Source: a virus
DNA length: 33,761 nt
IMG/VR virus record: IMGVR_UViG_3300031753_000026
Span: 1 to 33,761 of that record
Strand: one strand, 5' to 3'
Part shown: in pieces, positions 3,117-20,704 of the stretch
Position numbering within the stretch: the stretch's first letter is position 1
How the letters are laid out: the number at the start of each line of letters is the position of its first letter
Notes under the pieces: generated by a model
The model's database searches: none
The model's input: only the letters and a program-made list of their open reading frames with translations
Told to the model about the DNA's origin: nothing
Program-made: the position numbers and the translations under genes

Positions 3117-3119
3117 CCC

Positions 3120-4008: not shown

Positions 4009-4011
4009 ACC

Positions 4012-6777: not shown

Positions 6778-6800
6778 GGCGCGGCACCCTTGCCCAAAGT

Positions 6801-8369: not shown

Positions 8370-8527
8370 CAGCCCTTCGCTGGCTTCTTCTTCTTGTCGC
8401 CCCAGCGCGCCTGGGCGGCCTTGCGGGCGATCGCGGCGCGCTCTTCTTTCGTGAGCTGGGCGGCGCGCGCCTTGCCGCCTTTGCGGGCGAACTGCGTGGC
8501 GTAACTCTCTTTCTCTTTTGCCATCAC
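8369..8527 (-). CDS. Small basic KGGKARAAxLTxEER-type protein
   Basis: ATG at 8524 gives MAKEKESYATQFARKGGKAR, followed by AAQLTKEERAAIARKAAQAR, a widespread short bacterial and phage motif of unknown function, then a Lys-rich tail. An immediately upstream GTG (8527) sits 7 nt after a CATGCT hexamer that lies 17 bp from TTGCAA (8563-8558). This mimics the layout of the plus promoters and would make this divergent gene leaderless too. I annotated the GTG; ATG is equally possible. Confidence 0.6.
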   Translation of the reverse strand: MMAKEKESYATQFARKGGKARAAQLTKEERAAIARKAAQARWGDKKKKPAKG

Positions 8528-8534
8528 GCTTCGA

Positions 8535-8563
8535 AGCATGCCACAAAATATTCTAGCTTGCAA
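8535..8563 (-). promoter_or_regulatory. Candidate divergent promoter for the 8527 gene
   Basis: Minus-strand TTGCAA (8563-8558), 17-bp spacer, CATGCT (8540-8535), start codon 7 nt later. TTGCAA lies in a perfect palindrome GCTTGCAAGC (8556-8565) that contains the GCTTGC operator core. The match to sigma70 consensus is only moderate. Confidence 0.4.
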
Positions 8564-8574
8564 GCATTATTTTA

Positions 8575-8610
8575 TTGACATGCTTGCTGGCATGCAGTAT
8601 GCTTGCTTGC
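8575..8610 (+). promoter_or_regulatory. Sigma70 promoter P3 with TGCTTGC operator repeats
   Basis: TTGACA (8575-8580), 17-bp spacer, TATGCT (8598-8603). TGCTTGC copies at 8581-8587 and 8600-8606 are 19 bp apart. ATG follows 7 nt after the -10, at 8611. It is nearly identical to P1 and P2. Confidence 0.85.
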
Positions 8611-8814
8611 ATGGAGAGAATAATCAACACGAAACCGGAAGCCAGGCAGGCCATCACGCTGGGCCGCTTTCTCGGGCTGGCGCAGATTGCCCGCGAACAG
8701 GCCGCCGGGAAGCCCGGTTGGCAAGGGCTAAAGCCGGAATGGCTGGTCGAGCTGTTCGTCGAAGTGGCCGACAAATACGCCGAGGCGGAAGCGGCCGACC
8801 GGGAGACACGATGA
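8611..8814 (+). CDS. Small hypothetical protein under P3 (67 aa)
   Basis: ATG at 8611 coincides with the expected transcription start of P3, so the mRNA should be leaderless; an upstream in-frame TTG lies inside the promoter. The product begins MERIINTKPEARQAITLGRF and ends acidic (DKYAEAEAADRETR). It is helical with no known domain. The stop overlaps the next start as ATGA. Confidence 0.65.
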   Translation: MERIINTKPEARQAITLGRFLGLAQIAREQAAGKPGWQGLKPEWLVELFVEVADKYAEAEAADRETR

Positions 8815-8972
8815 ACCCGGCCGAGCTGCTGCACTCGGTCTCGCAAGTCCTGGGCCTGGCCGAAGCGCTCGCCATCGTCGGCGGCGCGCTCGCCCTGGTC
8901 CTCGTCCCAATCCTGCTGCTCCTCCGGGAGTACGCGAGCTCGCGGCCTGGCGCCGCGGAAAGGAACCATTGA
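8811..8972 (+). CDS. Single-pass membrane mini-protein (53 aa)
   Basis: Starts MNPAELLHSVSQVLGLAEAL and has one strongly hydrophobic stretch, AIVGGALALVLVPILLLL (about residues 21-38), followed by a charged tail REYASSRPGAAERNH. It is probably an inner-membrane protein of unknown role. It is coupled at both ends: ATGA at 8811 and TGATG at 8970-8974. Confidence 0.62.
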   Translation: MNPAELLHSVSQVLGLAEALAIVGGALALVLVPILLLLREYASSRPGAAERNH

Positions 8973-9319
8973 TGCCCGACTACACCACGATTTCAAAGTA
9001 CGACCGCATCCGCGGCCAGATGCAGGATGTGGCGCTGTTCACCAAGCCGAGCACGATCCGCAACGTAGAGACCCTGACCGGCAAGGCTGAGACCTTCGTG
9101 GTCGAGACCTGTCGCCACGCCGAGCTGGGCGACTACATCTTCGTCGAGTGCGTGGACGAGAGCGGCGTCGTTCGCCTCTGCTGCCCGCCCAAAGTAGCGG
9201 ACGCGATCGCTGCCCATCGCGACAGCCTGACCGCGCGCCGGCGCCGTATCGCCGGCCGAGCCACGGCCCAGGCCCGCAAGGATCGCGGCGAAAAGCCGGC
9301 TTTTTTGAAGAAACACTAG
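8972..9319 (+). CDS. Hypothetical protein (115 aa)
   Basis: Begins MPDYTTISKYDRIRGQMQDV, has VETCRHAELGDYIFVECVDE in the middle and a very basic C-terminal third (RRRRIAGRATAQARKDRG) suited to nucleic-acid binding. No family recognised. It sits directly upstream of the ATPase gene, separated by repeated leader element A. Confidence 0.6.
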   Translation: MPDYTTISKYDRIRGQMQDVALFTKPSTIRNVETLTGKAETFVVETCRHAELGDYIFVECVDESGVVRLCCPPKVADAIAAHRDSLTARRRRIAGRATAQARKDRGEKPAFLKKH

Positions 9320-9374
9320 GTCGAAACCGGGACCCCCGCCCGGTCTGCGTGTTAGTCGCGCACTGAGGAGACCA
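9316..9374 (+). repeat. Duplicated intergenic leader, copy A
   Basis: A ~59-bp element spans from the upstream stop to the GAGGAG ribosome site of the ATPase gene. It contains the stem ACCGGG/CCCGGT (9326-9331/9339-9344). A second copy lies at 10660-10718, so the same stop-hairpin-RBS cassette precedes two consecutive genes. Confidence 0.8.
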
Positions 9375-9379
9375 CAACT

Positions 9380-10663
9380 ATGTCGATGTTTACCGTTGCG
9401 CAGAAGGAAGTGGGGTTTGTGAAGGCCTCACTCTACGGGCCGCCGGGCACGGGTAAGACCGTCCTCGAGGCCATGCTCTTGATCTACCTGTCGAAGACCT
9501 ACCACAATTCCGCGCCAGTCGCCTGGCTGTCGTCGGAGAAGGGAGTCGACTTCGTGATCGACTTCTTCAAAGCCGAGGGCGTGCCGCTGCTGGTCAGCCG
9601 CTCGCGTTCGTTCGTCGACCTGAAACGAGCCCACGGCGAGGCCATCAAGGAAGGCTGCTGCGGCCTCGGCATCGACTCGACCACGCACTTCTGGGCCGAG
9701 CTCTACACCAGCGGGATGAAGGGCCCCGGTCCACGCCTAAGCAAGATCGGACGGATCAAGGACGAGTGGGCGCCGTTCGCCGCGGAGTTCCAGGACGCGC
9801 CCATCCACTCCCTGGCCAGCGGCCGGCTGGGCTACAAGTGGGAAGACGTCGAGATCGAAAACACGGAAGGGGAGATCGAGAAAGAGGTCATCAAGGCCGG
9901 CAGCAAGATGAAGGCCGAGGGCGACTTCGGGCACGAGCCCGACCTGGAAATCGAGATGGCGCAGGTGGAGGATCCGGACTTCATCCGCTACGAGAAGGTC
10001 CGCGGCCGGTCTCGCCGCACCTTCAAAAGCCAGATGCTGCACATCGCGACCATCAAGAAGGCGCGGGTGTGGGCACTCAACGGCAAGGCCTTCAGCTGGA
10101 AGGATCAGCCCAGCTATAAGCCCGGCTACTACAAGGTAGTCGCGGAATGCTTCAAACCGCACTTCGACTCGATCGCGATCGGCGGGGTGCATAACGTGGG
10201 CGGCGACCCCACCCGGCCCGGCTCGGAAGGGCTGTTCCGCAGCGGGAGCGACCAGAGCTACCACGAGATGCAGCTACGCAAGCAGATCGCGCTCGAGAAG
10301 TGGGATGCGACCATGGCGCTGATCGCCGGCGGGCAGGTCAAGGCCGACATCCGCAAGCGCCAGCTGATCGGCGAAGGCATCACCTTCACCCGGTCGAAGA
10401 CGCAGTTCATGGCCTCGGCGCTGCCCGACCTCGAGCGGCACCTCGACATCTTGCTCGCACTCGAGCGCCGGCTCAAGATCGACAACCCGACGAAGGACGA
10501 GGATCTGGCCGAGTGCATCCGGCTGGCGCGTGAGGACGTCGACCATCCGGGCAAGAACCTGTCACTGCTCGAAGTGCGGCTCGCGCAGAGCGTGGCCGAG
10601 GTGGAGAAGCCGAACGGCGCCGCCGAGGCCCCGCTGACCCCGGCTTACCCCGAGGCCTTCTAG
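9380..10663 (+). CDS. Phage P-loop ATPase (RecA/AAA-like)
   Basis: 427 residues with Walker A GPPGTGKT (20-27) near the N-terminus, then WLSSEKGVDFVID, and GLGIDSTTHFW as the likely Walker B. The layout matches AAA_24/Sak4-like phage ATPases that act in recombination or replication, but the long charged middle (ENTEGEIEKEVIKAGSKMKA) means I cannot name a subfamily. The RBS is GAGGAG in the repeated leader. It is the largest gene of the P3 block, and a DnaJ-like zinc protein follows. Confidence 0.75.
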   Translation: MSMFTVAQKEVGFVKASLYGPPGTGKTVLEAMLLIYLSKTYHNSAPVAWLSSEKGVDFVIDFFKAEGVPLLVSRSRSFVDLKRAHGEAIKEGCCGLGIDSTTHFWAELYTSGMKGPGPRLSKIGRIKDEWAPFAAEFQDAPIHSLASGRLGYKWEDVEIENTEGEIEKEVIKAGSKMKAEGDFGHEPDLEIEMAQVEDPDFIRYEKVRGRSRRTFKSQMLHIATIKKARVWALNGKAFSWKDQPSYKPGYYKVVAECFKPHFDSIAIGGVHNVGGDPTRPGSEGLFRSGSDQSYHEMQLRKQIALEKWDATMALIAGGQVKADIRKRQLIGEGITFTRSKTQFMASALPDLERHLDILLALERRLKIDNPTKDEDLAECIRLAREDVDHPGKNLSLLEVRLAQSVAEVEKPNGAAEAPLTPAYPEAF

Positions 10664-10718
10664 GTCGAAACCGGGCGCCCCAACCCGGTCTGCGCGTTCG
10701 GCGCGCACTGAGGAGACC
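10660..10718 (+). repeat. Duplicated intergenic leader, copy B
   Basis: Second copy of the 9316 element, from the ATPase stop to the next GAGGAG. It has the stem ACCGGG/CCCGGT (10670-10675/10684-10689) and an additional GCGCG/CGCGC hairpin (10692-10706) with a TTCGG loop. Confidence 0.8.
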
Positions 10719-10721
10719 ATC

Positions 10722-11413
10722 ATGGCAGTCGAAGCAAAACGCGGATGCGGTTATCGGAAGAAGGGCTGTACTTGGTGAGCGAGCCGGGCGGGATGCCCTG
10801 CGATCGCTTGCCGATCGCGCTCACGGTGTGCCCGGTCTGTTCGCACGGCTTCAAGCAGGCGCGCGGCTTTACCTGGGTGGACGTCGAAGGCCTGGTCGGC
10901 GGGGTGCATCGCGACTGCCAGGATTCCTGGCCGTGCCCGCTGTGCATGGCAACCGGCGGGATGGGCAAGGCCGGGCTGCTGTGGATTGGCGAGCGCTTCT
11001 ACAAGACGCCGGCGGCGTTCGAGCGGGAAGCGGGCGAGCTCGGGATCAGCCGGCGGATCACCGCGCTGCCCCGCGGCTTCAAGGTGGGCGAGACCTGGAT
11101 CCTGCTCGCGCACCCGAAGGCGATGCCGGGCCAACCGTGCGGCGCCTGTGAGGGCCTGGGCTTCCTGGGCAACGTCGGCGCGCTCGAGCCTTGCGACGGG
11201 TGCGACGGCAAAGGCAAGAAGGACGTGGCCGCGATCTTCAAGGTGTGGCGGCCGGCGCGGCTGGAAAAGATCCTCGGCGAATCGCAGCGCGACTCCGACG
11301 AGGTGCGCGAGCTGATCGAGAAAGGTATCACGCCGGTGTTCGTGCCCGACAACGACCCGGACCACCAAGGCACGGTGTACGACAAGGAAGAAGACGACGC
11401 CGAGGCCGCCTAG
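10722..11413 (+). pseudogene. DnaJ-like zinc-finger protein with N-terminal frameshift
   Basis: ATG at 10722 has a strong RBS from leader copy B and encodes MAVEAKRGCGYRKKGCTW before TGA. The frame shifted by -1 (open from 10745) continues as EEGLYLVSEPGGMPCDRLPI and runs 222 residues to 11413. Together they read as one protein broken around 10757-10768 (GGAAGAAGGGC). The main part has CPVC and CPLC pairs and a DnaJ-type CGACEGLGF...CDGCDGKGK zinc finger (about 136-162). Role unknown. Causes could be an indel, a sequencing error or recoding. The alternative start ATG 10745 has no ribosome site. Confidence 0.65.
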
Positions 11414-11484
11414 CCGTAGCGGATGATGACGTAAACGTAGAGGGCCGCGAAGATGCAAACGACTGTGACGATCGCGCAGGTCAC
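11410..11484 (-). CDS. 24-residue membrane micropeptide
   Basis: GTG at 11484 overlaps the previous stop as GTGA. The frame encodes VTCAIVTVVCIFAALYVYVI and ends IRYG, essentially one hydrophobic helix with a positive end. Its stop overlaps the stop of the convergent plus gene (11410-11413). Such short coupled membrane peptides at operon ends are often missed; function unknown. Confidence 0.45.
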   Translation of the reverse strand: MTCAIVTVVCIFAALYVYVIIRYG

Positions 11485-11678
11485 GGGAATTGGTAGTTGG
11501 GCCGCGTTTTCTCGGCTGCGGCCAGGGCCTCGGCCGCGCTATCATCGTGCCGGTAGACGGTAGGGTCGACGCCTTCCTCATGCAGCAGCGGTGCGACTAG
11601 GCGCAGGCATTCCAGCTCGCAGCGCACCCGGATCATTTCCGCTTCTTTCAGCTTCAACACTTCCTGGACGTCTTTCAC
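11481..11678 (-). CDS. Hypothetical protein (65 aa)
   Basis: Begins MKDVQEVLKLKEAEMIRVRC. The first half is a helix of heptad character and the tail is polar (AAAEKTRPNYQFP). No family recognised. The start overlaps the upstream stop as ATGA. It is the penultimate gene of the early operon. Confidence 0.6.
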   Translation of the reverse strand: MKDVQEVLKLKEAEMIRVRCELECLRLVAPLLHEEGVDPTVYRHDDSAAEALAAAEKTRPNYQFP

Positions 11679-11896
11679 TTCAACTCCTCGGCGCGCGCCT
11701 GCAGGGTGTAGAGCGCGATCGCTTCAATGAGGCGGTCGTACTCGTAGCTGGTGGCGTTGGCCGGATTCTGACGCAGGATCTTGACGATCTGCTCGGCCAG
11801 CTCGCGCTGCCGCTCGCGCTGCGACATTTCCTGCGGCTTCGGCATAGGAAAAAGCAGGGCCGGGCTCGCCAGCGCCCAGCCCATCAAGTCGACCAC
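11675..11896 (-). CDS. Hypothetical protein (up to 73 aa)
   Basis: The frame opens with GTG at 11896 (VDLMGWALASPALLFP). In-frame ATGs give MPKPQEMSQRERQREL and MSQRERQRELAEQI, and the latter is preceded by GCAGGAA. The conserved-looking part is the helical RELAEQIVKILRQNPANATS. Start uncertain; function unknown. The stop overlaps the next start as ATGA. Confidence 0.55.
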   Translation of the reverse strand: MVDLMGWALASPALLFPMPKPQEMSQRERQRELAEQIVKILRQNPANATSYEYDRLIEAIALYTLQARAEELK

Positions 11897-11902
11897 CCGA
11901 AG

Positions 11903-12448
11903 TTAGGCCGCGATCGCCTTGACCCGCGTGGCAAAGTTTTTGGTAATCACCCCGAGCACGTTCTCGGGCGCCGGCAGGGTCGGGTTGTTCTCGAGCATGC
12001 GGGCGCAGGTCGTGAAGCCGGCATACCAGAGGGTGACGTCGCGCTCGATTTCCTCGCCGGTAGCAGTCACCTCGTTGGCGATGTGCAGCCGCCGGTTGTC
12101 CTTCAGGGACCCGAAGTACGCCTCCGTGATCGTGGTCACGTTAAGTGGTTGCATTGGAACTATTCCCCCTTTACTCGTTGAGATGGCCGGCTCGACGGGC
12201 CCGGCTTTGCCAGCCATCTTACCCTGCTCGGCAACCTCCACGGCCGTTTCCAGCAGGGGCACGGGATCCGGCGCGCGCCAGCAGTCGCATTCCCGATACT
12301 CGCCGCGGGCCATCAGCAGGGAGAGAAAGGCGCGCGTGCCGTAGAAGATCACGGCGGGCGGAACGTGGAACGCCGCCGGCAGATCGAGCTCGCCCACGAA
12401 TTTGCCGTCAGCGGCGTAGAGCTTCACGGTCTTCGGGATTGGTGCCAT
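11903..12448 (-). CDS. Hypothetical early protein (181 aa)
   Basis: Begins MAPIPKTVKLYAADGKFVGE, with a YEECD-like segment GEYRECDCWRAPDPVP and a C-terminal half NVTTITEAYFGSLKDNRRLH onward. I see no known motif. The ATG directly follows the upstream TGA. Codon usage matches the operon. Confidence 0.6.
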   Translation of the reverse strand: MAPIPKTVKLYAADGKFVGELDLPAAFHVPPAVIFYGTRAFLSLLMARGEYRECDCWRAPDPVPLLETAVEVAEQGKMAGKAGPVEPAISTSKGGIVPMQPLNVTTITEAYFGSLKDNRRLHIANEVTATGEEIERDVTLWYAGFTTCARMLENNPTLPAPENVLGVITKNFATRVKAIAA

Positions 12449-12775
12449 TCACGCCTTCCTTTCAATTTTGTGCATCAAGACCCACTCGAGGGCAGCGCTC
12501 AACTCCTTCTGCGTCGCCGGATCTTTCGCGTCGCCGCGCACGATGCAGGCCGCCGCGCGTTCGAGCGCCCATGGCACTCCTTGCTCGAGCGGGACCAGCA
12601 GCACGATCGGCTTGTTGAGGAGAATCGCGGCGCCGACCTCGAGGCAGAGCTTCGGGTCGACCTTCCCGCTGTAGATGGAGATAGCGCACGCCGAGCTTTC
12701 CATCTTGGGCAGCATGTCGCGGCTCGCGTTCTCGAGCCAGGCCTTGATGGCGGAATCGTCCCAGGGGATGGTCAT
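12449..12775 (-). CDS. Nucleoside 2-deoxyribosyltransferase-like small protein
   Basis: 108 residues: MTIPWDDSAIKAWLENASRD, then ISIYSGKVDPKLCLEVGAAI and LLNKPIVLLVPLEQGVP. The arrangement D-x-x-x-x-LEVGxAxxLxKPI resembles phage proteins annotated as nucleoside deoxyribosyltransferase or TIR-like folds (a Rossmann-like fold with a glycosyl-transfer or NAD-related site). The assignment is tentative. If right, it could act on nucleotides or NAD metabolites during early infection. The start is fixed by ATGA overlap with the upstream gene. Confidence 0.5.
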   Translation of the reverse strand: MTIPWDDSAIKAWLENASRDMLPKMESSACAISIYSGKVDPKLCLEVGAAILLNKPIVLLVPLEQGVPWALERAAACIVRGDAKDPATQKELSAALEWVLMHKIERKA

Positions 12776-13056
12776 GCGGTCTCCTCCAAAGTGCTGGGGA
12801 TGGCTTCCACTTTGCGCGCGATTATCATGCAGAAGTTCGCCAGGTGCACCGCGGTTTTGCGCACGCGCTCGTAATCCTCCGGCCGATTCGTGGCGTAGAC
12901 CAGCTGCTCGGTCTTGTCCTGTAGGCATGCCAGCGCATCCGAAAGCGGATACTCCTTCGCCATGTAGTGCGGCTGGTCGCGCGACTCGCGCTCGATGTGT
13001 TTCGAGTCCATGGCTTCGGCCATCCAGTGGGCGAAGCGGTCAACATCAGCTCTCAT
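12772..13056 (-). CDS. Hypothetical protein (94 aa)
   Basis: Starts MRADVDRFAHWMAEAMDSKH and ends NFCMIIARKVEAIPSTLEET. Contains LACLQDKTEQLVYATNRPED and looks helical. The YATNRPEDYERVRKTAVHLA region resembles short phage hypotheticals that carry a helical HLANFCMM motif. Function unknown. Coupled at both ends by ATGA. Confidence 0.6.
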   Translation of the reverse strand: MRADVDRFAHWMAEAMDSKHIERESRDQPHYMAKEYPLSDALACLQDKTEQLVYATNRPEDYERVRKTAVHLANFCMIIARKVEAIPSTLEETA

Positions 13057-13256
13057 GCGGTCCTCCGTTCGAGCAGCGTGCCCAGCTTATACTTCGCGAT
13101 CAGGATCAGCGAGGCCGGGCGCAGGATGTAGAAGTCCAGGCGCGAGGCCACACCGATCGCGCGCGCGTAGTAGTACAGGCTGTTGGCGGGCTCACCATTC
13201 TGGCGCCGAACGTACTCGCGGAAGATCTCTTGGATCTCGGAATCGGTGAATGTCAT
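13053..13256 (-). CDS. Hypothetical protein (67 aa)
   Basis: Begins MTFTDSEIQEIFREYVRRQN, followed by SLYYYARAIGVASRLDFYIL. No domain recognised. ATGA overlaps at both ends tie it to the early operon. Confidence 0.6.
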   Translation of the reverse strand: MTFTDSEIQEIFREYVRRQNGEPANSLYYYARAIGVASRLDFYILRPASLILIAKYKLGTLLERRTA

Positions 13257-13987
13257 GCGCCCTTCCCTTTGGCGGCGAGGTAAGCGGCCAGTCGCGCCTT
13301 TTGGTCGGCAATGCGGTCGCGCAACTGGTCGGGTGTGGGCGGCTCGATGGGCGCGCGCGGAATTTCAACCGGAGTCGACACTGGCGGCGCCGTGGCTTCC
13401 ATCGGCTTTACTAGCTCGAGCACGCGCGGTGCCGGGATCTGAAGCACCTTGGCGAGATCCGGCAGCACCCGCTCCACTGCCGTCCAGGCCTGGTACTCCT
13501 CAAAGAAACGCTTTTGTTGAAACTGGGCGTCCCGAGCCCGCTCTGCATCGGTGTAGCTGAGAATCAGATAGGCGCCCCACCCACCTGTGCGCCGCACGGT
13601 GTCGGTGATACGGAGTGGCAACTTCGGTGCGCCCTTTTCCACGTAAGCATGCTGGTAGTCCTCACCCCAGCGGCACCACTTGTCGACAAATTTGATTAGC
13701 ACATCCCAGGCCGCCCGCATCTCGGCGTCAATCTGCGGCACCTCGTAGCCTTCGATCCGAGCAAAGATGTCGGGTAGTCGCACCGGGAAGCGGCATTCCC
13801 TCATACAGCGATTGAGAGCATATTGGATACTCTCCACGGAGTGCTTCTGGCACAAAGCTTCAGCCATCACCGCTAGAGCTCCTGCCTCTTCAGGCATGTG
13901 TCCCATTACGACGTAGAACGTGGCCAGCCGCCTGATTACTGATCTCGAGTTCTCGTTCGAGTCGGGCTCGGAGTCGGTCGTTGGCAT
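13253..13987 (-). CDS. Replication accessory protein, possible helicase loader
   Basis: 244 residues from ATG 13987, chosen because GGAAGGGAG precedes it (MPTTDSEPDSNENSRSVIRR). The helical middle (ATFYVVMGHMPEEAGALAVM, then RCMRECRFPVRLPDIFARIE) resembles phage P/DnaT-type loaders and DUF6475-like proteins: a compact helical domain before CRFPxxxPDIFxxI. This is inference, strengthened by its place directly after and overlapping the initiator, as lambda P follows O. No Walker motif is present. Confidence 0.5.
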   Translation of the reverse strand: MPTTDSEPDSNENSRSVIRRLATFYVVMGHMPEEAGALAVMAEALCQKHSVESIQYALNRCMRECRFPVRLPDIFARIEGYEVPQIDAEMRAAWDVLIKFVDKWCRWGEDYQHAYVEKGAPKLPLRITDTVRRTGGWGAYLILSYTDAERARDAQFQQKRFFEEYQAWTAVERVLPDLAKVLQIPAPRVLELVKPMEATAPPVSTPVEIPRAPIEPPTPDQLRDRIADQKARLAAYLAAKGKGA

Positions 13988-14666
13988 TTTGTTTTCTCCC
14001 TTCCGGCAGGTTGTAATTCGCATCTTCAAACCAAAAGCGGTTGATCTGGGCCCCAGTTGCCCTCGCGACCCAGACCTGGTGCTCGAGCCAGTCGCAGGCC
14101 CTCCCATTGGGCAAGCCGTATTGTTTCTCGATGGCCTCGATGGCAAACGCGACCGAGGTCACGTTTTGCAGAGTGATGGGCAACTGGATTCTCTCGAGAA
14201 GCCCGCGGGCGAGCGCAGCGTTGGGCAGGTCGGGGGCGGGGTTGTTGCTTGCCCCTGAACTTTCTGGCTTTAGATCTTTGGCTTCTTCCTTATTGCACCC
14301 CTGATTTTGTCGCATGGTGACCTCGTTTTTTGTCGTGTGGTGACCTGGCTTTTTGTCGTGTGGTCCACCCGACACCTGGGTGTCGTGTGGTAGTGAGAAC
14401 AGGAACGTGTACTGTAGTGGTCCGAAGCGCCCACTCGAAACCGCGCGAAGCTTCTCTTTTGTGAAGGCGCCCCACTCCTCGAGCTCGTCGATGACCCGCT
14501 CCACGGTGCGCTCGCTGATGCCGCAGTGGGCGGCAATTACTGGGTTGCCAGGCCGGCAGAGATTGGTTCGCCGATTACGATGGGCCAGCAAGCAGCCCAA
14601 CACGGCGGCATGGCGCGGCTTCCAGTCTTTGCCACGGTGCGCTGCGAAGCGTGCGATGGCCTTCAC
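13890..14666 (-). CDS. Replication initiator-like winged-helix protein (O-like)
   Basis: From GTG 14666 (AGGAG 9 nt upstream; the previous gene ends at 14686) the product begins VKAIARFAAHRGKDWKPRHA. A helix-turn-helix follows (PVIAAHCGISERTVERVIDE), then a low-complexity His/Thr/Lys linker and a C-terminal domain with CDWLEHQVWVARATG. HTH first, repeats in the middle and overlap with a loader-like gene all match lambdoid O proteins. The linker-coding DNA carries tandem 23-bp repeats, probably the origin. An upstream extension to 14762 in the same frame would overlap the previous gene and is less likely. Confidence 0.65.
   Translation of the reverse strand: MKAIARFAAHRGKDWKPRHAAVLGCLLAHRNRRTNLCRPGNPVIAAHCGISERTVERVIDELEEWGAFTKEKLRAVSSGRFGPLQYTFLFSLPHDTQVSGGPHDKKPGHHTTKNEVTMRQNQGCNKEEAKDLKPESSGASNNPAPDLPNAALARGLLERIQLPITLQNVTSVAFAIEAIEKQYGLPNGRACDWLEHQVWVARATGAQINRFWFEDANYNLPEGRKQNANDRLRARLERELEISNQAAGHVLRRNGTHA
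14295..14390 (-). repeat. Tandem 23-bp iterons, candidate replication origin
   Basis: Abutting units lie at 14295-14317, 14318-14340, 14341-14363 (23 bp each) and 14364-14390 (27 bp, divergent). The plus-strand core is TTTTGTCGTGTGG; the second and third units differ at only a few positions, while the outer ones are degenerate. Unit length is not a multiple of three although they lie inside a coding frame, so the DNA, not the peptide, is probably selected. Confidence 0.7.
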
Positions 14667-14685
14667 CTCGAGAGCTCCTAGCAAA

Positions 14686-14979
14686 TCACGCCGCCTTGGG
14701 AAATGTGAGGCCCTTCTTAAAAGCCCATAGTCGCGCGTGCCGCTCACAGGCCGCGCGCGCATGTATGACGATCTTCGGCTCGATCACGGTCTTGCTATCG
14801 AGCCCGCGGCCGCCTTTGACCTTCTTCACGTAGTGGTAGCCGACCTGGAAGTTCGCCGGGTCCTTGCAGAAGCCAGTCGCACAGCGGACGGGATGGCCAT
14901 GGTCGGCCAGGCCGGCGCGGGTGAAGTCGTGGCGCCGCACAAAGTGAGCGTGGGCCGAGGTTTTCAGGTGGCTAGGCAT
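14686..14979 (-). CDS. Hypothetical protein with Cys/His-rich segment (97 aa)
   Basis: Begins MPSHLKTSAHAHFVRRHDFT, continues HPVRCATGFCKDP and ends CERHARLWAFKKGLTFP. The spaced C-x(5)-C and CxxH residues could bind a metal. No named family. It overlaps the previous gene by 8 bp and ends just before the initiator start. Confidence 0.55.
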   Translation of the reverse strand: MPSHLKTSAHAHFVRRHDFTRAGLADHGHPVRCATGFCKDPANFQVGYHYVKKVKGGRGLDSKTVIEPKIVIHARAACERHARLWAFKKGLTFPKAA

Positions 14980-15232
14980 TGCGCTTCGCTTTCCGAAGCA
15001 GAAAATCGACTTCCTTCTCTTCGAGCCCGAGCAGGACCTTGGCCAGCGTGTGGGCCTCTTCGTGGCTGACGTGGATCATCGTTGCCTCGACCTTCCCGCC
15101 GCGGTACTCGGTCGCACGCAGGATCAGGTAACCGGACTGGGCCTCGAGCACTTCGAGCTTCCGCATGGGAGTGTCGATCACGGAGGTGGCGCGATAGGCG
15201 CTGATGACTTCGACGCTGGTCGCTCTGGTCAT
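14972..15232 (-). CDS. Hypothetical protein (86 aa)
   Basis: Starts MTRATSVEVISAYRATSVID and ends with a charged helix, LLGLEEKEVDFLLRKAKRNA. It contains RGGKVEATMIHVSHEEAHTL. Function unknown. It starts 2 nt after the upstream TAA. Confidence 0.58.
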   Translation of the reverse strand: MTRATSVEVISAYRATSVIDTPMRKLEVLEAQSGYLILRATEYRGGKVEATMIHVSHEEAHTLAKVLLGLEEKEVDFLLRKAKRNA

Positions 15233-15234
15233 AA

Positions 15235-15558
15235 TTAACGGCCGGGCCCCGCGGTTGTGCCGTTTCCGTTCAAGCTTTCCGCAGGGCCCGGCCGAGCTCT
15301 GAGTGATTCTCCGCGACCTCCTTTCCTCACCCGAATTTTCCCCGCGGTCGGGCGGGGAATCTTTTGCAGTGCAGCGATGCGATGCACGTCAATGGGACAG
15401 TCCGGCCGGCGCGTGATCCGAAACGGGTCCCACTCCACCCGACAGGTGCAGACATCGCCAAGCTCAAACTCGCCATCCAGTTGCCGGTAGACGCTGCGCA
15501 GATGGCGCCCCGCTAGGCGAAACTCGATCATGCGGCGTCCTTCTGCGCAGTTGCTCAT
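15235..15558 (-). CDS. Hypothetical protein (107 aa, or 98 from a later start)
   Basis: ATG 15558 overlaps the upstream stop as ATGA (MSNCAEGRRMIEF). ATG 15531 (MIEFRLAGRHLRSVYRQLDG) has AGAAGGA 6 nt upstream and may be the used start. The C-terminal part is basic and Gly/Pro-rich (KIRVRKGGRGESLRARPGP), and its coding DNA contains a 10-bp inverted repeat. No family recognised. Confidence 0.55.
   Translation of the reverse strand: MSNCAEGRRMIEFRLAGRHLRSVYRQLDGEFELGDVCTCRVEWDPFRITRRPDCPIDVHRIAALQKIPRPTAGKIRVRKGGRGESLRARPGPAESLNGNGTTAGPGR
15240..15293. repeat. 10-bp perfect inverted repeat
   Basis: GGCCGGGCCC (15240-15249) pairs with GGGCCCGGCC (15284-15293) across 34 nt, at the 3' end of the coding region that stops at 15235. 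It may stall ribosomes or protect RNA. There is no U-tract. Confidence 0.6.
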
Positions 15559-15755
15559 GCCTGCCTGGCCTTTCCTAGAATTTTGAGCGACAGCGCGCGA
15601 TCGAGGACCCAGCGCTGGCCGGCCGGCTTCAGCTCGTAGAACATCAGGAACGGGAGGTAGCGGTTGTCCAGGTACTCGCGCAGGGCTTGCTGCAGGTAGC
15701 GGTCGTTGTCCTTCAGCGTCGACGGGAAAGTGAGGACCTTGGCGGGTTTCGACAT
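15555..15755 (-). CDS. First early-operon protein (66 aa)
   Basis: ATG 15755 gives MSKPAKVLTFPSTLKDNDRY, an acidic-basic mixed helical protein (LQQALREYLDNRYLPFLMFY). An upstream GTG at 15773 in the same frame (VFRNFEMSK) falls next to the leader inverted repeat and is less likely. Function unknown. A tRNA-like leader lies immediately upstream. Confidence 0.55.
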   Translation of the reverse strand: MSKPAKVLTFPSTLKDNDRYLQQALREYLDNRYLPFLMFYELKPAGQRWVLDRALSLKILGKARQA

Positions 15756-15770
15756 TTCGAAATTCCGAAA

Positions 15771-15835
15771 CACCGCTCGGGATTATGAGTCCACTGCTCT
15801 AACCGCTGAGCTACGGGCCCACATCCCGAGCGGTG
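15771..15835 (-). other. tRNA-Met/Ile(CAU) 5'-half inside a 13-bp inverted repeat
   Basis: On the minus strand, 15822-15784 reads as the first ~38 nt of a tRNA: acceptor GGGCCCG, TA at 8-9, D-stem GCTC/GAGC with loop AGCGGTTA, then the anticodon loop CTCATAA (CAU). The 3' half (variable region, T-arm, CCA) is absent. The fragment is enclosed by perfect 13-bp arms CACCGCTCGGGAT (15771-15783) and ATCCCGAGCGGTG (15823-15835). It would lie in the leader RNA of the early operon. It could be an attachment-site relic or a tRNA-mimicking regulatory element. Confidence 0.65.
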
Positions 15836-16140
15836 GGGAGGTGACCGCAAAACTTCCTCTCTCCGCTCCCAGGGGTTTAAGTTCTCGAACCCGGAGAGTG
15901 TGAAGCAGGCGCGAGGGTAAGTCGCACCCCGAAGCCCGGTCAAGCGCAAACTGGTCGCACGCTGTGCAAAAGCTGTGGGCAACTCGGAAATCTGTGGAAA
16001 AGCCGGGCGCGAGTGCGACTAGATTTGGGCCCGGTTTCCCACAGCTGAGTGATGGCAGGCGGCGTGCAGGCCAGGCGGAAACGGGTGCCACCTGTGGGAC
16101 GGTGGACTAAAAGTCCACTGTCCTAGCCGCTACCAACCCC
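15836..16140. other. Non-coding region between integrase and early operon
   Basis: No gene is seen. It holds DnaA-box-like 9-mers (TGTGGAAAA at 15993-16001, one mismatch to consensus; TTTCCCACA at 16035-16043 and TGTGGGCAA at 15974-15982, two mismatches each), GTGCGAC-type repeats near 15921-15927 (minus) and 16013-16019 (plus), the candidate early promoter, and the second tRNA-like hairpin. It is a plausible control or attachment region. Confidence 0.55.
15915..15943 (-). promoter_or_regulatory. Candidate promoter of the early operon
   Basis: Minus-strand TTGACC (15943-15938), 17-bp spacer ending GTGCGAC, and TTACCC (15920-15915). The spacer end matches the integrase-region promoter at 17349. 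The -10 is weak. It would give a leader of about 150 nt that contains the tRNA-like half. Confidence 0.4.
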
Positions 16141-16141
16141 A
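16097..16141 (-). other. Second tRNA-like half with long hairpin (UUU loop)
   Basis: Minus-strand GTAGCGGCTAGGACAGTGGA followed by CTTTTAGTCCAC resembles a D-arm plus an anticodon arm with a Lys-type UUU loop, and it aligns with the CAU half at 15784-15822. The anticodon arm extends to a ~12-bp hairpin (16097-16108/16112-16123). It is fully paired, with one G-U, only in plus-strand RNA. No T-arm follows, so I do not call a functional tRNA. Confidence 0.45.
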
Positions 16142-16164
16142 AAAAGTGTGTCAGGGTTGACACA
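16141..16164 (-). terminator. Intrinsic terminator after integrase
   Basis: On the minus strand a 7-bp stem TGTGTCA/TGACACA with loop ACCC (16164-16147) is followed by CTTTTT (16146-16141), 25 bp past the integrase stop. Short stem but clear U-tract. Confidence 0.65.
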
Positions 16165-16188
16165 ACTTACCCACTTGAGCCAAGCCGT

Positions 16189-17118
16189 TCAGTTCGGCTT
16201 CTTGGTCTCGAACGGGAGCTCGGCTTCGCGGCGGAACAGGTCGAGCTGGCGCTGCTTGCGGTTGAAGGCCTCGAGCTTTTCCATGGCGTCGTCGAGGTCG
16301 GTGCGGCTGACGATGTGGTAGCGGTCGAACACGTCGCGCGTGAGGTGACCGGAGATCCGCATCGCGACCTTCTCCGGCACGCCGGACCGGATCAGGTTGC
16401 GCACCCCGGTGCGGCGCAGGTCGTGGAAGAGGAGGGCGGGGCAACCCGCGGCCTGGGTCGCCTTCGCCCAGGCGTCGCGCATGTCGATGATCGGGGTATC
16501 CATCGAGTGCACGCCGGGGCGGGTGAAGACGTAATCGTTCGGGGCCTTGCCGGCGATGCATTGCGCCACGAGCTCGAGCACCTGGCCGCGCAGGGGCAGC
16601 AGGCGCGCTTCCTCGTTCTTGGTCTCGCCGGCCTCGAGCGTGATGCTGCGCTCTTCCAAGTTGACTTGGCGCACGCGCAGGTTTAGCAGCTCGGACTTGC
16701 GGCACCCGAAGGTGACGCCACACTCGAACATGGCCCGCAGCCACAGCCCGATCTTGCCGGTCTCCTCGGCCAGCCGGCGGTACTCGCTGTCGCGCAGAAA
16801 GCCTTTGCGGACGTTGGTTTCCTTGAGGTGCGGGATGTAGGGACACTCGGCCAGCGACAGCCGGCGCGAGCGGATGGCCAGCACGTACATGCGTTTCAGC
16901 GCGGCCAGCTCGCGGTTGATGGTGGAGTTCTCGGCCTTCTGCTCGAGGCGCAGCGAGATGTAGGTCTCGACCTGATCCGTGGAAATCGTCTCGGCGGGGA
17001 TGGCTTCGAAGAAGGGTTTGAGGTGGCAGGCCCAGCGGTAGCGCACAGTGCGCAGGGATTTCCGGCGGTTGATGGTGTAGTCACGGACCAAGGCCTCGGC
17101 CAGATCGGAAACTTTCAT
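16189..17118 (-). CDS. int: Tyrosine recombinase (phage integrase)
   Basis: 309 residues from ATG 17118 (GGAGG, 7-nt spacing; an upstream ATG at 17124 is too close to the GGAGG). An N-terminal SAM-like core-binding domain (KSLRTVRYRWACHLKPFFEA) is followed by the catalytic domain. In numbering from the upstream ATG, the catalytic residues are Arg142 (GCRKSELLNL), Lys169 (GETKN), His234/Arg237 (HDLRRTG), His260 (SGHL) and the nucleophile Tyr269 (FDRYHIV). It would catalyse site-specific integration, probably at a tRNA gene given the nearby tRNA halves. The set is complete, so activity is expected. A terminator follows it and tandem promoters precede it. Confidence 0.93.
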   Translation of the reverse strand: MKVSDLAEALVRDYTINRRKSLRTVRYRWACHLKPFFEAIPAETISTDQVETYISLRLEQKAENSTINRELAALKRMYVLAIRSRRLSLAECPYIPHLKETNVRKGFLRDSEYRRLAEETGKIGLWLRAMFECGVTFGCRKSELLNLRVRQVNLEERSITLEAGETKNEEARLLPLRGQVLELVAQCIAGKAPNDYVFTRPGVHSMDTPIIDMRDAWAKATQAAGCPALLFHDLRRTGVRNLIRSGVPEKVAMRISGHLTRDVFDRYHIVSRTDLDDAMEKLEAFNRKQRQLDLFRREAELPFETKKPN

Positions 17119-17200
17119 TTCCATCCCTCCATGGTGCGGGGCGGCGAGTCTCGGCGGAAAGGTCGCGAGAGGAGTGGTACTTGTGGGAGCGGCACGCGCG

Positions 17201-17361
17201 GCATTCTATAGTCGCACTACCGCGGCGAATGTCACGTTTTGTAAAGCTGCAAATCTGTTCGGTTTTCGGAACAGCGAACAGCGCTACCGGAGGTTGTCAG
17301 AGCTGACGGGTGAGCGACCACTTATAGTCGCACCCTGGGCGATTGTCAAGTTTTGTAAACG
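17201..17361 (-). promoter_or_regulatory. Integrase control region with duplicated promoter/operator
   Basis: Upstream copy: TTGACA (17349-17344), 17-bp spacer, TATAAG (17326-17321), near-consensus on the minus strand. Downstream copy about 115 bp away: GTGACA (17235-17230) and TATAGA (17210-17205) with a 19-bp spacer. Both are preceded by TTTACAAAAC and end the spacer in GTGCGAC followed by TAT. Between them, CTGTTCG/CGAACAG is an inverted repeat. This fits a repressor-controlled integrase promoter pair or integrase arm sites. Confidence 0.65.
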
Positions 17362-17709
17362 TTAGACGACGGCGGCCTGGGCCGGTGTGCCGAGCTCGAG
17401 GCGCGTTTCCAGCGACTCGATGATGAGCTTGTTCAAGCTCATGTTCCGGACCTTCGCCGCGCGCTTTACCGCCTCGTAGAGCTTGACCGAGGGAAAGCGG
17501 ACGTAGAGGTTCTTCTGCTCGCGCAAGGGGCGGCCGCCTTCGGCGTGGTGCTGGCGAACGAGGTGCAGTTTGGGGGCAGCCTTGCGGGTGAGTTTGGCGG
17601 TAACGCCTTTGGGGGCGTGCGGCTTGATTCGCGCGAGATGTTTCGCCATCGCGCGGGTGGTGAGGTTGGGTTTGGCGGCGGGGCGGGTACGACGCGCTGG
17701 AGTTTTCAT
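17362..17709 (-). CDS. Ribbon-helix-helix (Arc/CopG-like) regulator
   Basis: 115 residues. A basic, Pro/Ala-rich N-terminus is followed by the RHH core NLYVRFPSVKLYEAVKRAAK and then VRNMSLNKLIIESLETRLEL, a beta strand plus two helices as in Arc and CopG. It probably binds operator DNA as a dimer; the GTGCGACTA motifs around it and the integrase are candidate targets. No ribosome site precedes ATG 17709, but TAGACT lies exactly 7 nt upstream with TTGCCC 18 bp before it, so the mRNA may be leaderless. The long basic N-terminal extension is unusual. Confidence 0.75.
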   Translation of the reverse strand: MKTPARRTRPAAKPNLTTRAMAKHLARIKPHAPKGVTAKLTRKAAPKLHLVRQHHAEGGRPLREQKNLYVRFPSVKLYEAVKRAAKVRNMSLNKLIIESLETRLELGTPAQAAVV

Positions 17710-17737
17710 GCGCGCCAGTCTAAAGCGGGGGATGCGA

Positions 17738-18208
17738 CTAGGGCAAGGATTTTTCCCGCACCACGAGCTTGGGCGTTTGCGGCTTGATGACTTGGCACTG
17801 GCTGTAGAGGGCCAGCAAGGGCCGGGACAGCTTCTCGCCCTTGATGATCTCGCCGGAGTCCGGGCACAGAGTCCAGCGGATGTCTTTGTCGAATACGCGC
17901 TTCAGCAGGCGGGCCTGGCTGGCTTTGACCAGGGCCAGGCGAAAGCGCTCCACCGCGGCGTCGTCGATCGAGATCGACTGGCCGAAGGTGGCCATCATTT
18001 CCCAGCTGACGCCGTGCAGCAGTTTCGACTTCTCGGCATGCGTCGAGCCGTGCTCGCGGACCAGCTCGACCAGCTCTTCCTTCAGCTTGTCGACTGGTTT
18101 TTGGGCCTCCTCGCAGGCCTGGAAAGCCTTGAGCAGCGCCGCTTTCAGCGCGTTGTAGTCCGCGGCTTTCGCGTCGACTACGGCTGGCGTGGGAGCGCCC
18201 ATGCCCAC
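17738..18208 (-). CDS. Hypothetical coiled-coil protein (156 aa)
   Basis: Begins MGMGAPTPAVVDAKAADYNA (Met3 is also a possible start). Residues about 17-55 form a charged helix (EEAQKPVDKLKEELVELVRE). The C-terminal half has a CPDSGEIIKGEK segment, with only one Cys before it, so a metal site is unlikely. Host-nuclease-inhibitor (Gam) similarity was considered but is not supported. It precedes the RHH gene. Confidence 0.55.
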   Translation of the reverse strand: MGMGAPTPAVVDAKAADYNALKAALLKAFQACEEAQKPVDKLKEELVELVREHGSTHAEKSKLLHGVSWEMMATFGQSISIDDAAVERFRLALVKASQARLLKRVFDKDIRWTLCPDSGEIIKGEKLSRPLLALYSQCQVIKPQTPKLVVREKSLP

Positions 18209-18237
18209 TAGTTTGGCACGGCGCCGGCGCGGCGTGC

Positions 18238-18435
18238 TCAGAAAAGTTTGGTGATGTAGGGCAGGGCGTTCGCCAGGCGGTTGACCGCGGCGCGGGCTTC
18301 CGCGTCCAGGGAGCGGAAGTCGACCAGGACCTGGGCCACGGCTGCACGTTCGATGGCGCGGCCCCAGAAGACGCCGACGGTGACCCCGGCGCTGAAAACG
18401 AACGCAAGATCGACTACGGTCATGAGCAGGTGCAT
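18238..18435 (-). CDS. Small membrane protein (65 aa)
   Basis: ATG 18435 is set by CGGAG 7 nt upstream. One N-terminal hydrophobic helix (LLMTVVDLAFVFSAGVTVGV) is followed by a soluble helical tail (LVDFRSLDAEARAAVNRLAN). It lies just downstream of the lysis genes, so an inner-membrane spanin or holin accessory is possible; this is inference. Confidence 0.55.
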   Translation of the reverse strand: MHLLMTVVDLAFVFSAGVTVGVFWGRAIERAAVAQVLVDFRSLDAEARAAVNRLANALPYITKLF

Positions 18436-18448
18436 GGGAATCTCCGTT

Positions 18449-18817
18449 TTACTTTGCTGGCGCCGGAGCTGGGGCTGCATTCAGCACCGCAACCACGGAA
18501 CTGATGTATCTGGCGACTGCTGCCTCGTCACTCGCCTTGCCAGCATCCGCTAAGCCTTGCGAGACCACCGGCCCGATGAGCTGCACCACATCGGCCAGCT
18601 TGGAGGGGCCCGTCGCGTTTTGTTGTTTGAGGGCGGCGTATTTCTGTTCAGCCAGAACCACCGCACTCACTGTGGTGTTGAACATCGGACCCAGTGCGGG
18701 CGCGAAAGCGGCGACGGCGATTTCAGCTGGGCCGGCAGCGTAAGGCAGGATTGCCAGTAGGCCTTTTTGAAAATCACGGCCCACGGTCTCGAGAAAGGAC
18801 ACGAATTTGTTGGTCAC
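18449..18817 (-). CDS. Hypothetical protein near lysis genes (122 aa)
   Basis: GTG 18817 overlaps the previous stop as GTGA, with GGAG 8 nt upstream. Product VTNKFVSFLETVGRDFQKGL continues with an Ala/Val-rich hydrophobic centre (EIAVAAFAPALGPMFNTTVS) and ends Pro/Ala-rich (LNAAPAPAPAK). It may be membrane-associated. No family named. Confidence 0.6.
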   Translation of the reverse strand: MTNKFVSFLETVGRDFQKGLLAILPYAAGPAEIAVAAFAPALGPMFNTTVSAVVLAEQKYAALKQQNATGPSKLADVVQLIGPVVSQGLADAGKASDEAAVARYISSVVAVLNAAPAPAPAK

Positions 18818-19149
18818 GGTTTGATCTCCTTGTCGGCTTTGTGAATGGTTTCGAGGTCGGTGGCGAGCTCCTGGGCCGCTTCGGCCGAGGGCAGCACCAC
18901 CAGCATGCCTCTGGTGAGGCGCGACTGTTCGCGGCGGAACAGCACCGTCATAGCGATCGCCGCCATGACCATGCCGGTGCCGATCGCCAGGTACGGTGAC
19001 TTCGAGGCGGCGAGGGTTCCGCCGCACACGAATAAAAACGACACCACGGCCGAGAAGCCCAGCTCGAACAGAAATTTGAGCCAGGCTGCGAGGGCGGTCT
19101 GCTTCATCCAGCCCAGGACGAAGCTCGCGATCGGCTCAAAAGGATTCAT
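18814..19149 (-). CDS. Two-helix membrane protein, holin-like
   Basis: 111 residues with hydrophobic helices FLFELGFSAVVSFLFVCGGT (about 26-45) and YLAIGTGMVMAAIAMTVLF (about 53-71), then a polar cytoplasmic-type tail. Size, two spans and position beside holin and glucosaminidase fit a holin or antiholin; not proven. The start overlaps the upstream stop as ATGA. Confidence 0.6.
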   Translation of the reverse strand: MNPFEPIASFVLGWMKQTALAAWLKFLFELGFSAVVSFLFVCGGTLAASKSPYLAIGTGMVMAAIAMTVLFRREQSRLTRGMLVVLPSAEAAQELATDLETIHKADKEIKP

Positions 19150-19370
19150 TGGTTCTTCGGTTCTTTGGCGGTTGCCGTCGCGGCTTCTACCTGTGCGACT
19201 GTGGAATGGGTAGACGCATCCTTGGCAGCGATCAGGCCCACGCCGGAGGTGATTCCGGCGATGAGAACGGTGGCGTTGACCGGCTGCCCGTGTAGAAGGG
19301 CCAGCCCAGCGGTAGCGAGCGTCACCACGATGGTGAGCACGCCGGAAATAGTGGTTTTCCAGTTCTTCAT
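19146..19370 (-). CDS. Small holin
   Basis: 74 residues, MKNWKTTISGVLTIVVTLAT, then a second hydrophobic stretch NATVLIAGITSGVGLIAAKD and a polar tail (VAQVEAATATAKEPKNQ). The MKNWKTTxxGxLT opening with GxGLIxAKDA is a familiar small-holin pattern in phages. It would form pores that release the glucosaminidase encoded just upstream. The ATG has GGAGG in the region before it. Confidence 0.72.
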   Translation of the reverse strand: MKNWKTTISGVLTIVVTLATAGLALLHGQPVNATVLIAGITSGVGLIAAKDASTHSTVAQVEAATATAKEPKNQ

Positions 19371-19404
19371 TTTTTCCTCCCCAGTTTGAAAACTTAAGAT
19401 TTTG

Positions 19405-19902
19405 TTAACTTCCGGCCGGCGGCGCGATCGGCGTCGGCGTCTGCGTCTGGATGAAATCGTCGTAGATCGCGATCACCTTCTTGGCCTTGTCCGGATCCGA
19501 TGACCAGGTTTTCGACACTTCGGTGACGTAGGTCCGCGCGTCCGGGGCGTCGAGTGCGGCTTTGTAATGCGGGTAGACGTTCGACAGCCGCTCGAGCGTG
19601 GCCAGGCGATCGCAGAAGCAGGCGCGCCAGTCGGGATAGACCACGAACTTCGCGCTGACCACTTCCCAGCGGCCGTCGAGCGCCGAGCCTTGCCACTCGC
19701 GCGTGGGCAGGGTGATGGTGCCGTAAATCGGGTGCGCGTGCTGCTTCATCCCGAAGAGGTTGAAGTCTTGCAAGGCGAGCAGACTGTGACCCCAGGTGGA
19801 CTCGAGTGCGGCCTCGCAGGCTGCCATGGCCGGAAAGGGATGGTTGGCCTTGATGGCCTCGTTCCGGGCACGGGTGAGGAAGTCACGCTGGATCTGATTC
19901 AT
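19405..19902 (-). CDS. Endolysin: N-acetylglucosaminidase (GH73-like)
   Basis: 165 residues. FPAMAACEAALESTWGHSLL and then FNLFGMK carry the GH73/FlgJ-type signature, with Glu34 in ESTWG as the likely catalytic acid. FVVYPDWRACFCDRLATLER and YVTEVSKTWSSDPDKAKKVI complete the domain. It would cleave peptidoglycan glycan strands in lysis. No signal peptide, so release depends on the adjacent holin. Confidence 0.85.
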   Translation of the reverse strand: MNQIQRDFLTRARNEAIKANHPFPAMAACEAALESTWGHSLLALQDFNLFGMKQHAHPIYGTITLPTREWQGSALDGRWEVVSAKFVVYPDWRACFCDRLATLERLSNVYPHYKAALDAPDARTYVTEVSKTWSSDPDKAKKVIAIYDDFIQTQTPTPIAPPAGS

Positions 19903-19921
19903 CGTTGCACCTCGAGATGAA

Positions 19922-19979
19922 TCGCGGGCCCTGAACTCGCCCAGAGGGCGACCAGCCCCGGTCGGCCCAGGGCCCGCGA
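19922..19979. repeat. 11-bp inverted repeat upstream of endolysin
   Basis: TCGCGGGCCCT (19922-19932) and AGGGCCCGCGA (19969-19979) can pair, enclosing a small CGCCC/GGGCG hairpin. It lies between the glycosyltransferase and endolysin genes. There is no U-tract, so it is more likely an RNA-processing or stability structure than an intrinsic terminator. Confidence 0.65.
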
Positions 19980-19996
19980 ACTTGTGGGGAATGTCG

Positions 19997-20704
19997 TTAG
20001 GAACTCAGAAAGGCCTGGTGGCAGGCGTACATCCGAGCTTTGTCGTAGCGGTCGGGACAGGACAGGTGACTCGAGATGATCGCGTTCTGTCGGGTCGGCC
20101 AGCACTGCGAGCCGCGGTTGATGAAGCGCCGGTCGTCGAAGTAAGCCAGCCGGCGGGTCGAGCGCCCCAGGATGTTGCCGGTCCAGAGGTCTTCCGCGTA
20201 AGGCGTGATGTCGTCGCGCCACACGCCCAGCACGGGCGCGTTCGGCAGCAGCGAGTAGGCCGCCATGCTTTGCCAGCATCCAGGACCGCCACTGGCATAG
20301 TTCTGGGCTTTCTGGTAGGTGACCTCGTTGGTTTCAGGATCGCCCCGAAAGTCGCCGTAGTAGTCGTACCGGGTGAACTCGCAGGCGAACAGCCGCTCGG
20401 GCACCACGTAGGTGTCGGGGAAGCAGCGGAAGAGGAAGTCGTAGCCGCGCTCGAGCGCCCAGGCGGCCGACGCGCGGGTCTTGTACGTGAGGTGGCCGTA
20501 ATCATCCGGGACGTCAGGCAGCAGGATGGTGTCGGCGGGCAGCCCCACGTCCAGCAAGGTGCGCTCGGCGCCCTGGCCGGTGCCCACAAAAAAGCGCACG
20601 TCGGCGAAGCGCTCGGCCTCGGGGATCCAGGTCAGGCGCAGGGCATCGTTCGAGCCGTTTTTCTCGAAGTCCCAGCAGGTCGAGATGGCAATTAGGTACT
20701 TCAC
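19997..20704 (-). CDS. GT31-like glycosyltransferase A (235 aa)
   Basis: GTG 20704 overlaps the methyltransferase stop as GTGA. VKYLIAISTCWDFEKN opens a GT-A fold. DVRFFVGTG (35-43), PDVPDDYGHLTYKT (63-76), GYDFLFRCFPDTYVVPERL (87-105) and EDLWTG (171-176) follow the GT31 beta-1,3-glycosyltransferase order. The usual DxD is altered to FPD here, so metal binding and activity are uncertain. It may modify a virion protein or host surface glycan. Confidence 0.65.
   Translation of the reverse strand: MKYLIAISTCWDFEKNGSNDALRLTWIPEAERFADVRFFVGTGQGAERTLLDVGLPADTILLPDVPDDYGHLTYKTRASAAWALERGYDFLFRCFPDTYVVPERLFACEFTRYDYYGDFRGDPETNEVTYQKAQNYASGGPGCWQSMAAYSLLPNAPVLGVWRDDITPYAEDLWTGNILGRSTRRLAYFDDRRFINRGSQCWPTRQNAIISSHLSCPDRYDKARMYACHQAFLSS

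Follow-up and report, generated by a model that had tools for sequence, protein, structure and literature searches.

In the window, by which we mean the whole stretch of 33,761 nt analysed here (the complete IMG/VR record IMGVR_UViG_3300031753_000026, with a GC content of 64%), the 5′ half of a tRNA(CAU) gene is located on the minus strand at positions 15,780 to 15,820, enclosed by a 13-bp perfect inverted repeat. We interpret this feature, with a probability of roughly 90%, as the attP site at which the tyrosine integrase of a temperate phage recombines with a host tRNA(CAU) gene, the crossover falling within the anticodon loop; the target is probably the tRNA-Ile2 gene of an acidobacterium. 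A crossing in the anticodon loop, which the initial annotation had raised as an unusual option beside a regulatory role, is strongly supported by identical host tRNA genes, by the adjoining tyrosine integrase and by relatives with displaced 5′ halves in five genomes. What can be seen directly is the identity to host sequences, the presence of the integrase and a matching architecture in relatives that are integrated; the phage's own mode of integration, its host and the promoter serving the tRNA we infer.

The tRNA(CAU) 5′ half and its host counterparts

Read on the minus strand from position 15,835 to 15,771, the feature has the sequence CACCGCTCGGGAT-GT-[GGGCCCGTAGCTCAGCGGTTAGAGCAGTGGACTCATAATCC]-CGAGCGGTG, in which the inner bracket denotes the 41-nt tRNA half. 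The half starts exactly at tRNA position 1 and comprises the acceptor 5′ strand, the D arm, the 5′ part of the anticodon stem, the loop CTCATAA (15,783 to 15,789) and the nucleotides TCC. Its last 3 nt extend beyond the 7-nt anticodon loop, so that the half reaches about position 41 and not, as originally proposed, about position 38. The half as such is real, as it is identical in 41 of 41 positions to 54 complete tRNA genes with the anticodon CAT, found in 54 genome contigs chiefly of Acidobacteriota (Terriglobia) and Planctomycetota. In all of these contigs the 41-mer is followed by an ordinary 3′ half, which begins with ATTGG, TCTGG or a similar sequence. The suggested comparison with host tRNA-Met and tRNA-Ile genes hence yielded an exact 41-nt match to a host tRNA(CAU) that most resembles tRNA-Ile2: for the target gene ARAGORN cannot distinguish tRNA-Ile2 (CAU) from elongator tRNA-Met, but the best E. 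coli matches of the full gene are annotated as tRNA-Ile (82–83% identity), which makes tRNA-Ile2 the more likely target.

As expected for a sequence that contains only half of a tRNA, ARAGORN returned nothing for the half and the tRNA match in Rfam remained below threshold (15.7 bits versus 29). Neither program detected a tRNA 3′ half anywhere in the window, and a split or permuted tRNA was therefore rejected. Phage genes flank the half on either side, indicating that the record holds the unintegrated attP form and not the end of a prophage. The majority of the recognised genes, among them a PBSX-type large terminase (1342–2664), lie on the minus strand; the relatives of the terminase are too distant to inform the attP reading. 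The first gene after attP is a small ORF (MSKPAKVL..., 15,555 to 15,755, minus strand) without a family match, which begins the leftward gene block.

Since the 41-mer also occurs in Planctomycetota, the host has to be deduced from the kinship of the integrase. Relatives of this protein are found mainly in Terriglobia (E ≤ 1e-50 in 29 of 399 genomes; E ≤ 1e-60 in 16 of 200 genomes of one family). In contrast, none was present in 246 Planctomycetota genomes at E ≤ 1e-40, by which this phylum was rejected as the source of the integrase. The phage host is thus probably a member of the Acidobacteria. Of 30 Terriglobia genomes in which the search pattern for the half was matched, 28 contain a single copy, and the further copies in the remaining two represent displaced halves. 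The target tRNA is therefore probably encoded by a single gene, and lysogeny would render this tRNA dependent on the prophage.

The integrase and the att sites of its relatives

The tyrosine integrase (311 amino acids; 16,189 to 17,124, minus strand) carries all six catalytic residues, R142, K169, H234, R237, H260 and Y269, and the tRNA half lies 368 bp downstream on the same strand. The protein lacks an N-terminal stretch that is present in its relatives (GTG.LYRRGS..WW..Y..GR..R.ST), which may be their arm-binding part. Directly 3′ of the integrase gene we observed a weak terminator-like hairpin (16,147 to 16,164, minus strand), in a scan that yielded three such hairpins compared with 2.0 expected in shuffled sequences. 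By inspection of the sequence, a candidate promoter for the tRNA half, TTGACC-18-TACCCT (15,914 to 15,943, minus strand), and a candidate promoter for the integrase, TTGACA-17-TATAAG (17,321 to 17,349, minus strand), can be proposed, which share the motif GTGCGACT; the former scored below the threshold of a consensus promoter scan and the latter was not returned by it.

Given these elements, the proposed integration would proceed as follows. The attP site brings the tRNA 5′ half, and a crossover in the anticodon loop would join the phage 5′ half to the host 3′ half. The resulting hybrid tRNA would lie at the prophage end that carries the integrase and would be read from a phage-borne promoter, whereas the host promoter and the host 5′ half would remain at the opposite end and point towards the gene block of the phage. 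The predicted junctions consist of the phage leader, the half and the host 3′ half (CACCGCTCGGGATGTGGGCCCG...AATCCATTGG) on one side, and of the host leader, the half and CGAGCGGTG on the other. Integration of this polarity separates the host tRNA from its own promoter, which ends up on the far side of the prophage. Transcription of the rebuilt tRNA therefore has to come from phage DNA, and the lysogen depends on the prophage for this tRNA.

To compare the att sites of related integrases, we examined 39 Terriglobia loci encoding integrases with 35–55% identity, counting a tRNA gene if it was located at most 300 bp from the integrase 3′ end. This applied to 27 of the 39 loci. In 14 of them the tRNA gene is co-directional with the integrase, corresponding to the 5′ side (−9 to 38 bp from the integrase stop codon), and in 13 it faces the integrase, corresponding to the 3′ side (mostly 1–73 bp). 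On the integrase tree, where the side labels derive mostly from tRNA adjacency only, the 5′ side requires eight label changes, at least six of which are forced by well-supported branches; polarity thus appears to switch readily.

Five Terriglobia genomes show the 5′-type signature, in which a full tRNA gene is preceded, on the same strand, by a displaced 5′ half. The displaced half measures 40 nt at tRNA-CAU in G008, where it is identical to the half in the window, 40 nt at tRNA-Leu(CAA) in G005 and 41 nt at tRNA-Leu(TAG) in G529; tandem halves are present at tRNA-Asp in G209 (39 and 26 nt) and at tRNA-CAU in G193 (38 and 39 nt). In G008, G209, G005 and G529 an integrase relative is located at the end with the hybrid tRNA. 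The displaced halves break at the 7-nt anticodon loop or at most 2 nt past it, compared with 3 nt in the window. A related integrase is likewise encoded by the 60-kb viral contig L251, in which a tRNA-Lys(TTT) 5′ half follows 9 bp past the stop codon (4075–4118); judged by its sequence, this contig represents another phage with a 5′-half attP.

The tandem 5′-type elements span positions 3611–13,926 of contig L182 at tRNA-Asp (G209) and 6427–12,848 of contig L228 at tRNA-CAU (G193). The trailers in G209 contain a hairpin (AAAGGACTTA...TAAGTCCTTT) approximately 22 nt past the displaced half, which perhaps blocks read-through from the host tRNA promoter. In contigs L223 (5372–5445) and L187 (9732–9811) we observed displaced tRNA 3′ halves that ARAGORN called as whole tRNA genes; calls of this kind probably lead to erroneous tRNA counts.

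Several observations argue against the attP reading. No integrated copy of the phage was found in the genome contigs searched, which may not include the host: none of the 54 exact matches of the 41-mer continues into the phage trailer, and no attL or attR of the phage was found in these contigs. Among the integrases with mapped sites, the two closest to that of the window (L141 and L160, in genomes G069 and G363) are of the 3′ type, at tRNA-Arg and tRNA-Ala. Moreover, the distance of 368 bp between integrase and half exceeds the spacing in the integrated 5′-type relatives, and a second core-like copy lies nearer to the integrase, where the relatives keep their att site. With regard to close kin, a 35-nt pattern of the site had no match in viral contigs, positions 1 to 20,000 of the window had no BLAST match in a phage collection, and scans with the single integrase sequence for a close phage relative returned nothing.

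Competing explanations and the inverted repeat

The second copy (CAGTGGACTTTTAGTCCACCG; 16,097 to 16,131, minus strand) is a diverged anticodon-arm-like segment just after the integrase gene. It agrees with the tRNA half in 22 of 28 positions (16,104–16,131), where the maximum in 300 shuffles was 18, it has CAGTGGACT in common with the half, and it forms a near-palindrome at 16,097–16,123 with the arms GGACGGTGGACT and AGTCCACTGTCC. Its sequence makes it a candidate for an old or decoy attP core, or else for an integrase-binding site. We consider it highly improbable that this segment acts as the attP core today, with the 41-nt half being an extra site or one no longer in use, even though the segment's position directly behind the integrase stop codon and its near-perfect palindrome, which resembles an anticodon arm, would fit, and even though the closest viral integrase relatives, L238 and L240 (51–52% identity), harbour a palindromic core TGATTGTTAATCAGA downstream of the integrase without a tRNA half. 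For the second copy has no match to a tRNA in the Terriglobia genomes searched: in 61 genomes no match was found with up to three mismatches, and in 41 genomes two matches with three mismatches compare with three for a reversed-pattern control, by which the segment was rejected as a host tRNA half. In contrast, the first copy is perfectly conserved with the host tRNA over 41 nt, as is expected only under recurrent recombination or under selection for rebuilding the tRNA. The same perfection, together with boundaries that fall precisely at tRNA position 1 and shortly after the anticodon loop, makes it scarcely credible that the half is a dead remnant, captured from a host by chance and devoid of a present role. 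The absence of an integrated copy from the databases searched would be compatible with such a remnant, but the half accompanies an intact integrase whose relatives use halves of this kind.

The core in L238 (approximately 4068–4082) and L240 (approximately 4001–4015) is short and resembles an anticodon arm containing GTT, and a tRNA might be disrupted by integration at this core; as the anticodon arm of a Terriglobia tRNA-Asn, TGATTGTTAATCAGA found no match in 41 genomes.

The inverted repeat described in the initial annotation was confirmed. Its leader arm (CACCGCTCGGGAT; 15,823 to 15,835, minus strand) lies 2 nt ahead of tRNA position 1, and its trailer arm (ATCCCGAGCGGTG; 15,771 to 15,783, minus strand) shares its first four nucleotides (ATCC) with the tRNA half, while the rest is phage-specific and lies after the crossover region. 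The arms are complementary at 13 of 13 positions. This is the sole 13-bp perfect inverted repeat with a spacer of up to 60 nt in the window, 19 of 20 shuffles of the window contained none, and no further copy occurs elsewhere in the window with up to two mismatches. The predicted folding energy of the 65-mer amounts to −40.5 kcal/mol, compared with a mean of −20.6 kcal/mol for shuffled sequences (z = −6.6). The repeat around the tRNA half is not due to chance. It is not a common feature of 5′-half att sites either: in seven reconstructed sites the longest complementarity between leader and trailer amounts to 4–5 nt, and in the site of the viral contig L251 to 5 nt, so that a comparable repeat is absent from all eight.

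In the folding predictions the attP RNA forms one 13-bp hairpin, in which the D-stem is the only tRNA pairing retained, and the hybrid tRNA with the phage leader adopts a cloverleaf. The arms would be joined only in the unintegrated attP and pulled apart by integration; the hairpin predicted to lock the half-tRNA in the RNA could not form thereafter. Judging from these folds, we tentatively propose that the repeat most likely serves to sequester, in folded form, the half-tRNA transcript for which the unintegrated phage has no use. Such shielding and a binding role at the level of the DNA are the two proposals that we favour for the repeat. In the latter case, which is compatible with the attP reading and concerns the repeat only, the arms would be an inverted pair of sites for the integrase, an excisionase or a repressor, paired only in attP. 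This is possible, if rather doubtful: the repeat is perfect and unique within the window, and one of its arms extends into the right core arm of attP, but the eight other 5′-half att sites have nothing comparable and the integrase lacks the N-terminal stretch that may be the arm-binding part in its relatives.

The initial annotation had considered that the RNA regulates translation by tRNA mimicry. More broadly, the half-tRNA capped by the 13-bp stem could be a structured leader that controls the early genes in cis, either by mimicry or by masking of a start codon. The hairpin is very stable, and 15 nt separate its end from the start codon of the first small ORF, an ATG. Once the leader arm is missing, folding predictions give the trailer a different hairpin in which this ATG takes part; the predicted probability of the ATG being unpaired is approximately 0.44 in the leftover context as compared with 0.55–0.96 in the attP context. 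This change is modest and varies with the cut position and length of the RNA, and start-codon masking was rejected on these grounds. For tRNA mimicry, we obtained no positive evidence, given that only the D-stem retains tRNA pairing in the hairpin, that no known leader RNA family in Rfam, T-box-like or other, matches, and that no homologous leader was found for comparison. In searches for the latter, the putative replication gene as a query returned nothing, and the two matches to the small ORF are short, unrelated and located in low-GC contigs. As attP moreover fully explains the tRNA identity, we regard a structured leader as unlikely. A combination of both ideas appears less likely still: attP would be an RNA switch for the integration state, in which a transcript from the integrase-side promoter crosses the half-tRNA into the early genes and forms the 13-bp hairpin, and integration splits the hairpin, after which the promoter serves the rebuilt tRNA and the early genes are left downstream of an alternative hairpin that covers their first start codon. 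If this were true, recombination itself would turn the early operon down.

Relation to known systems

The premise of the initial annotation that a normal integration remnant keeps the tRNA 3′ half holds as a tendency but not as a rule, since 159 of 3,919 islands in the Islander collection carry a 5′ tDNA fragment (PMC4383910) and the pTN3-like integrases use the 5′ half (PMC8371274). The attP reading places the present site in the 5′-fragment class of Islander with the anticodon subsite, in which a tyrosine integrase lies between a full tRNA gene and a displaced 5′ fragment (PMC4383910). Correspondingly, the phage encodes an intact tyrosine recombinase, its fragment starts at the exact tRNA end and stops at the crossover subsite, an identical attB is present in candidate hosts, and integrated relatives possess the full tRNA together with the displaced 5′ half. 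In contrast to Islander, where this class is a minority of 4%, 5′ adjacency accounts for about half of the tRNA-adjacent loci in the present integrase family of Acidobacteriota, with repeated switches on the tree.

The closest parallel in the architecture of the target is the element in the acidobacterial genome G008 (L139/L172/L173; contig of L091), which uses the same tRNA(CAU), shares the identical 40 nt and carries a co-directional, adjacent integrase. Unlike the phage in the window, this element is 7.3 kb in size and has no leader-trailer repeat, and the integrases are only about 36% identical. As far as the accessible descriptions of pTN3 and the pTN3-like integrases of Thermococcus go, their attP and attB likewise have a tRNA 5′ half in common, anticodon included (PMC5495485, PMC8371274), over 41 bp of a tRNA-Leu gene in the case of pTN3 (PMC5495485), and in the archaeal pTN3-like elements the rebuilt tRNA is parted from its original promoter and read from element DNA (PMC8371274). 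By the same descriptions, pTN3 differs in being an archaeal plasmid that targets tRNA-Leu and in which attP is part of the integrase gene, so that this gene is split upon integration, whereas the half in the window (15,780–15,820) lies outside the integrase gene (16,189–17,124); these accounts mention no repeat around the half. The tRNA-dependent lysogeny of mycobacteriophages also combines integration in the anticodon loop with tRNA function supplied by the phage, but these phages compensate with a separate complete tRNA gene (PMC10865867); by ARAGORN, no complete tRNA gene is present in the linear, possibly incomplete 33.8-kb record.

Attachment sites with a 5′ tRNA fragment are thus already known as a minority, of which the present site is a phage member. 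By the open-access literature, two features appear to be new, namely the inverted repeat that encloses the half and the high frequency of 5′ polarity in this integrase family. Usually treated as a rarity, 5′ polarity is found here in a phage and in integrated form in five Terriglobia genomes. With an integrase family that appears to switch polarity often, it can now be asked what sets the polarity in a near-symmetric anticodon-arm target, and 5′-type prophages raise the question of how expression of the tRNA is secured. The repeat, which integration would break, is a concrete and testable oddity.

Elsewhere in the window, three near-identical sites on the plus strand, at 2658, 4655 and 8575, start with TTGACATGCTTGCT and end with TATGC, and thereby oppose the strand of most recognised genes. 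In addition, the phage encodes a PAPS-reductase-like protein (4387–5961, minus strand; PHROG 2302, E = 5e-81), which displays a weak similarity to DndC.
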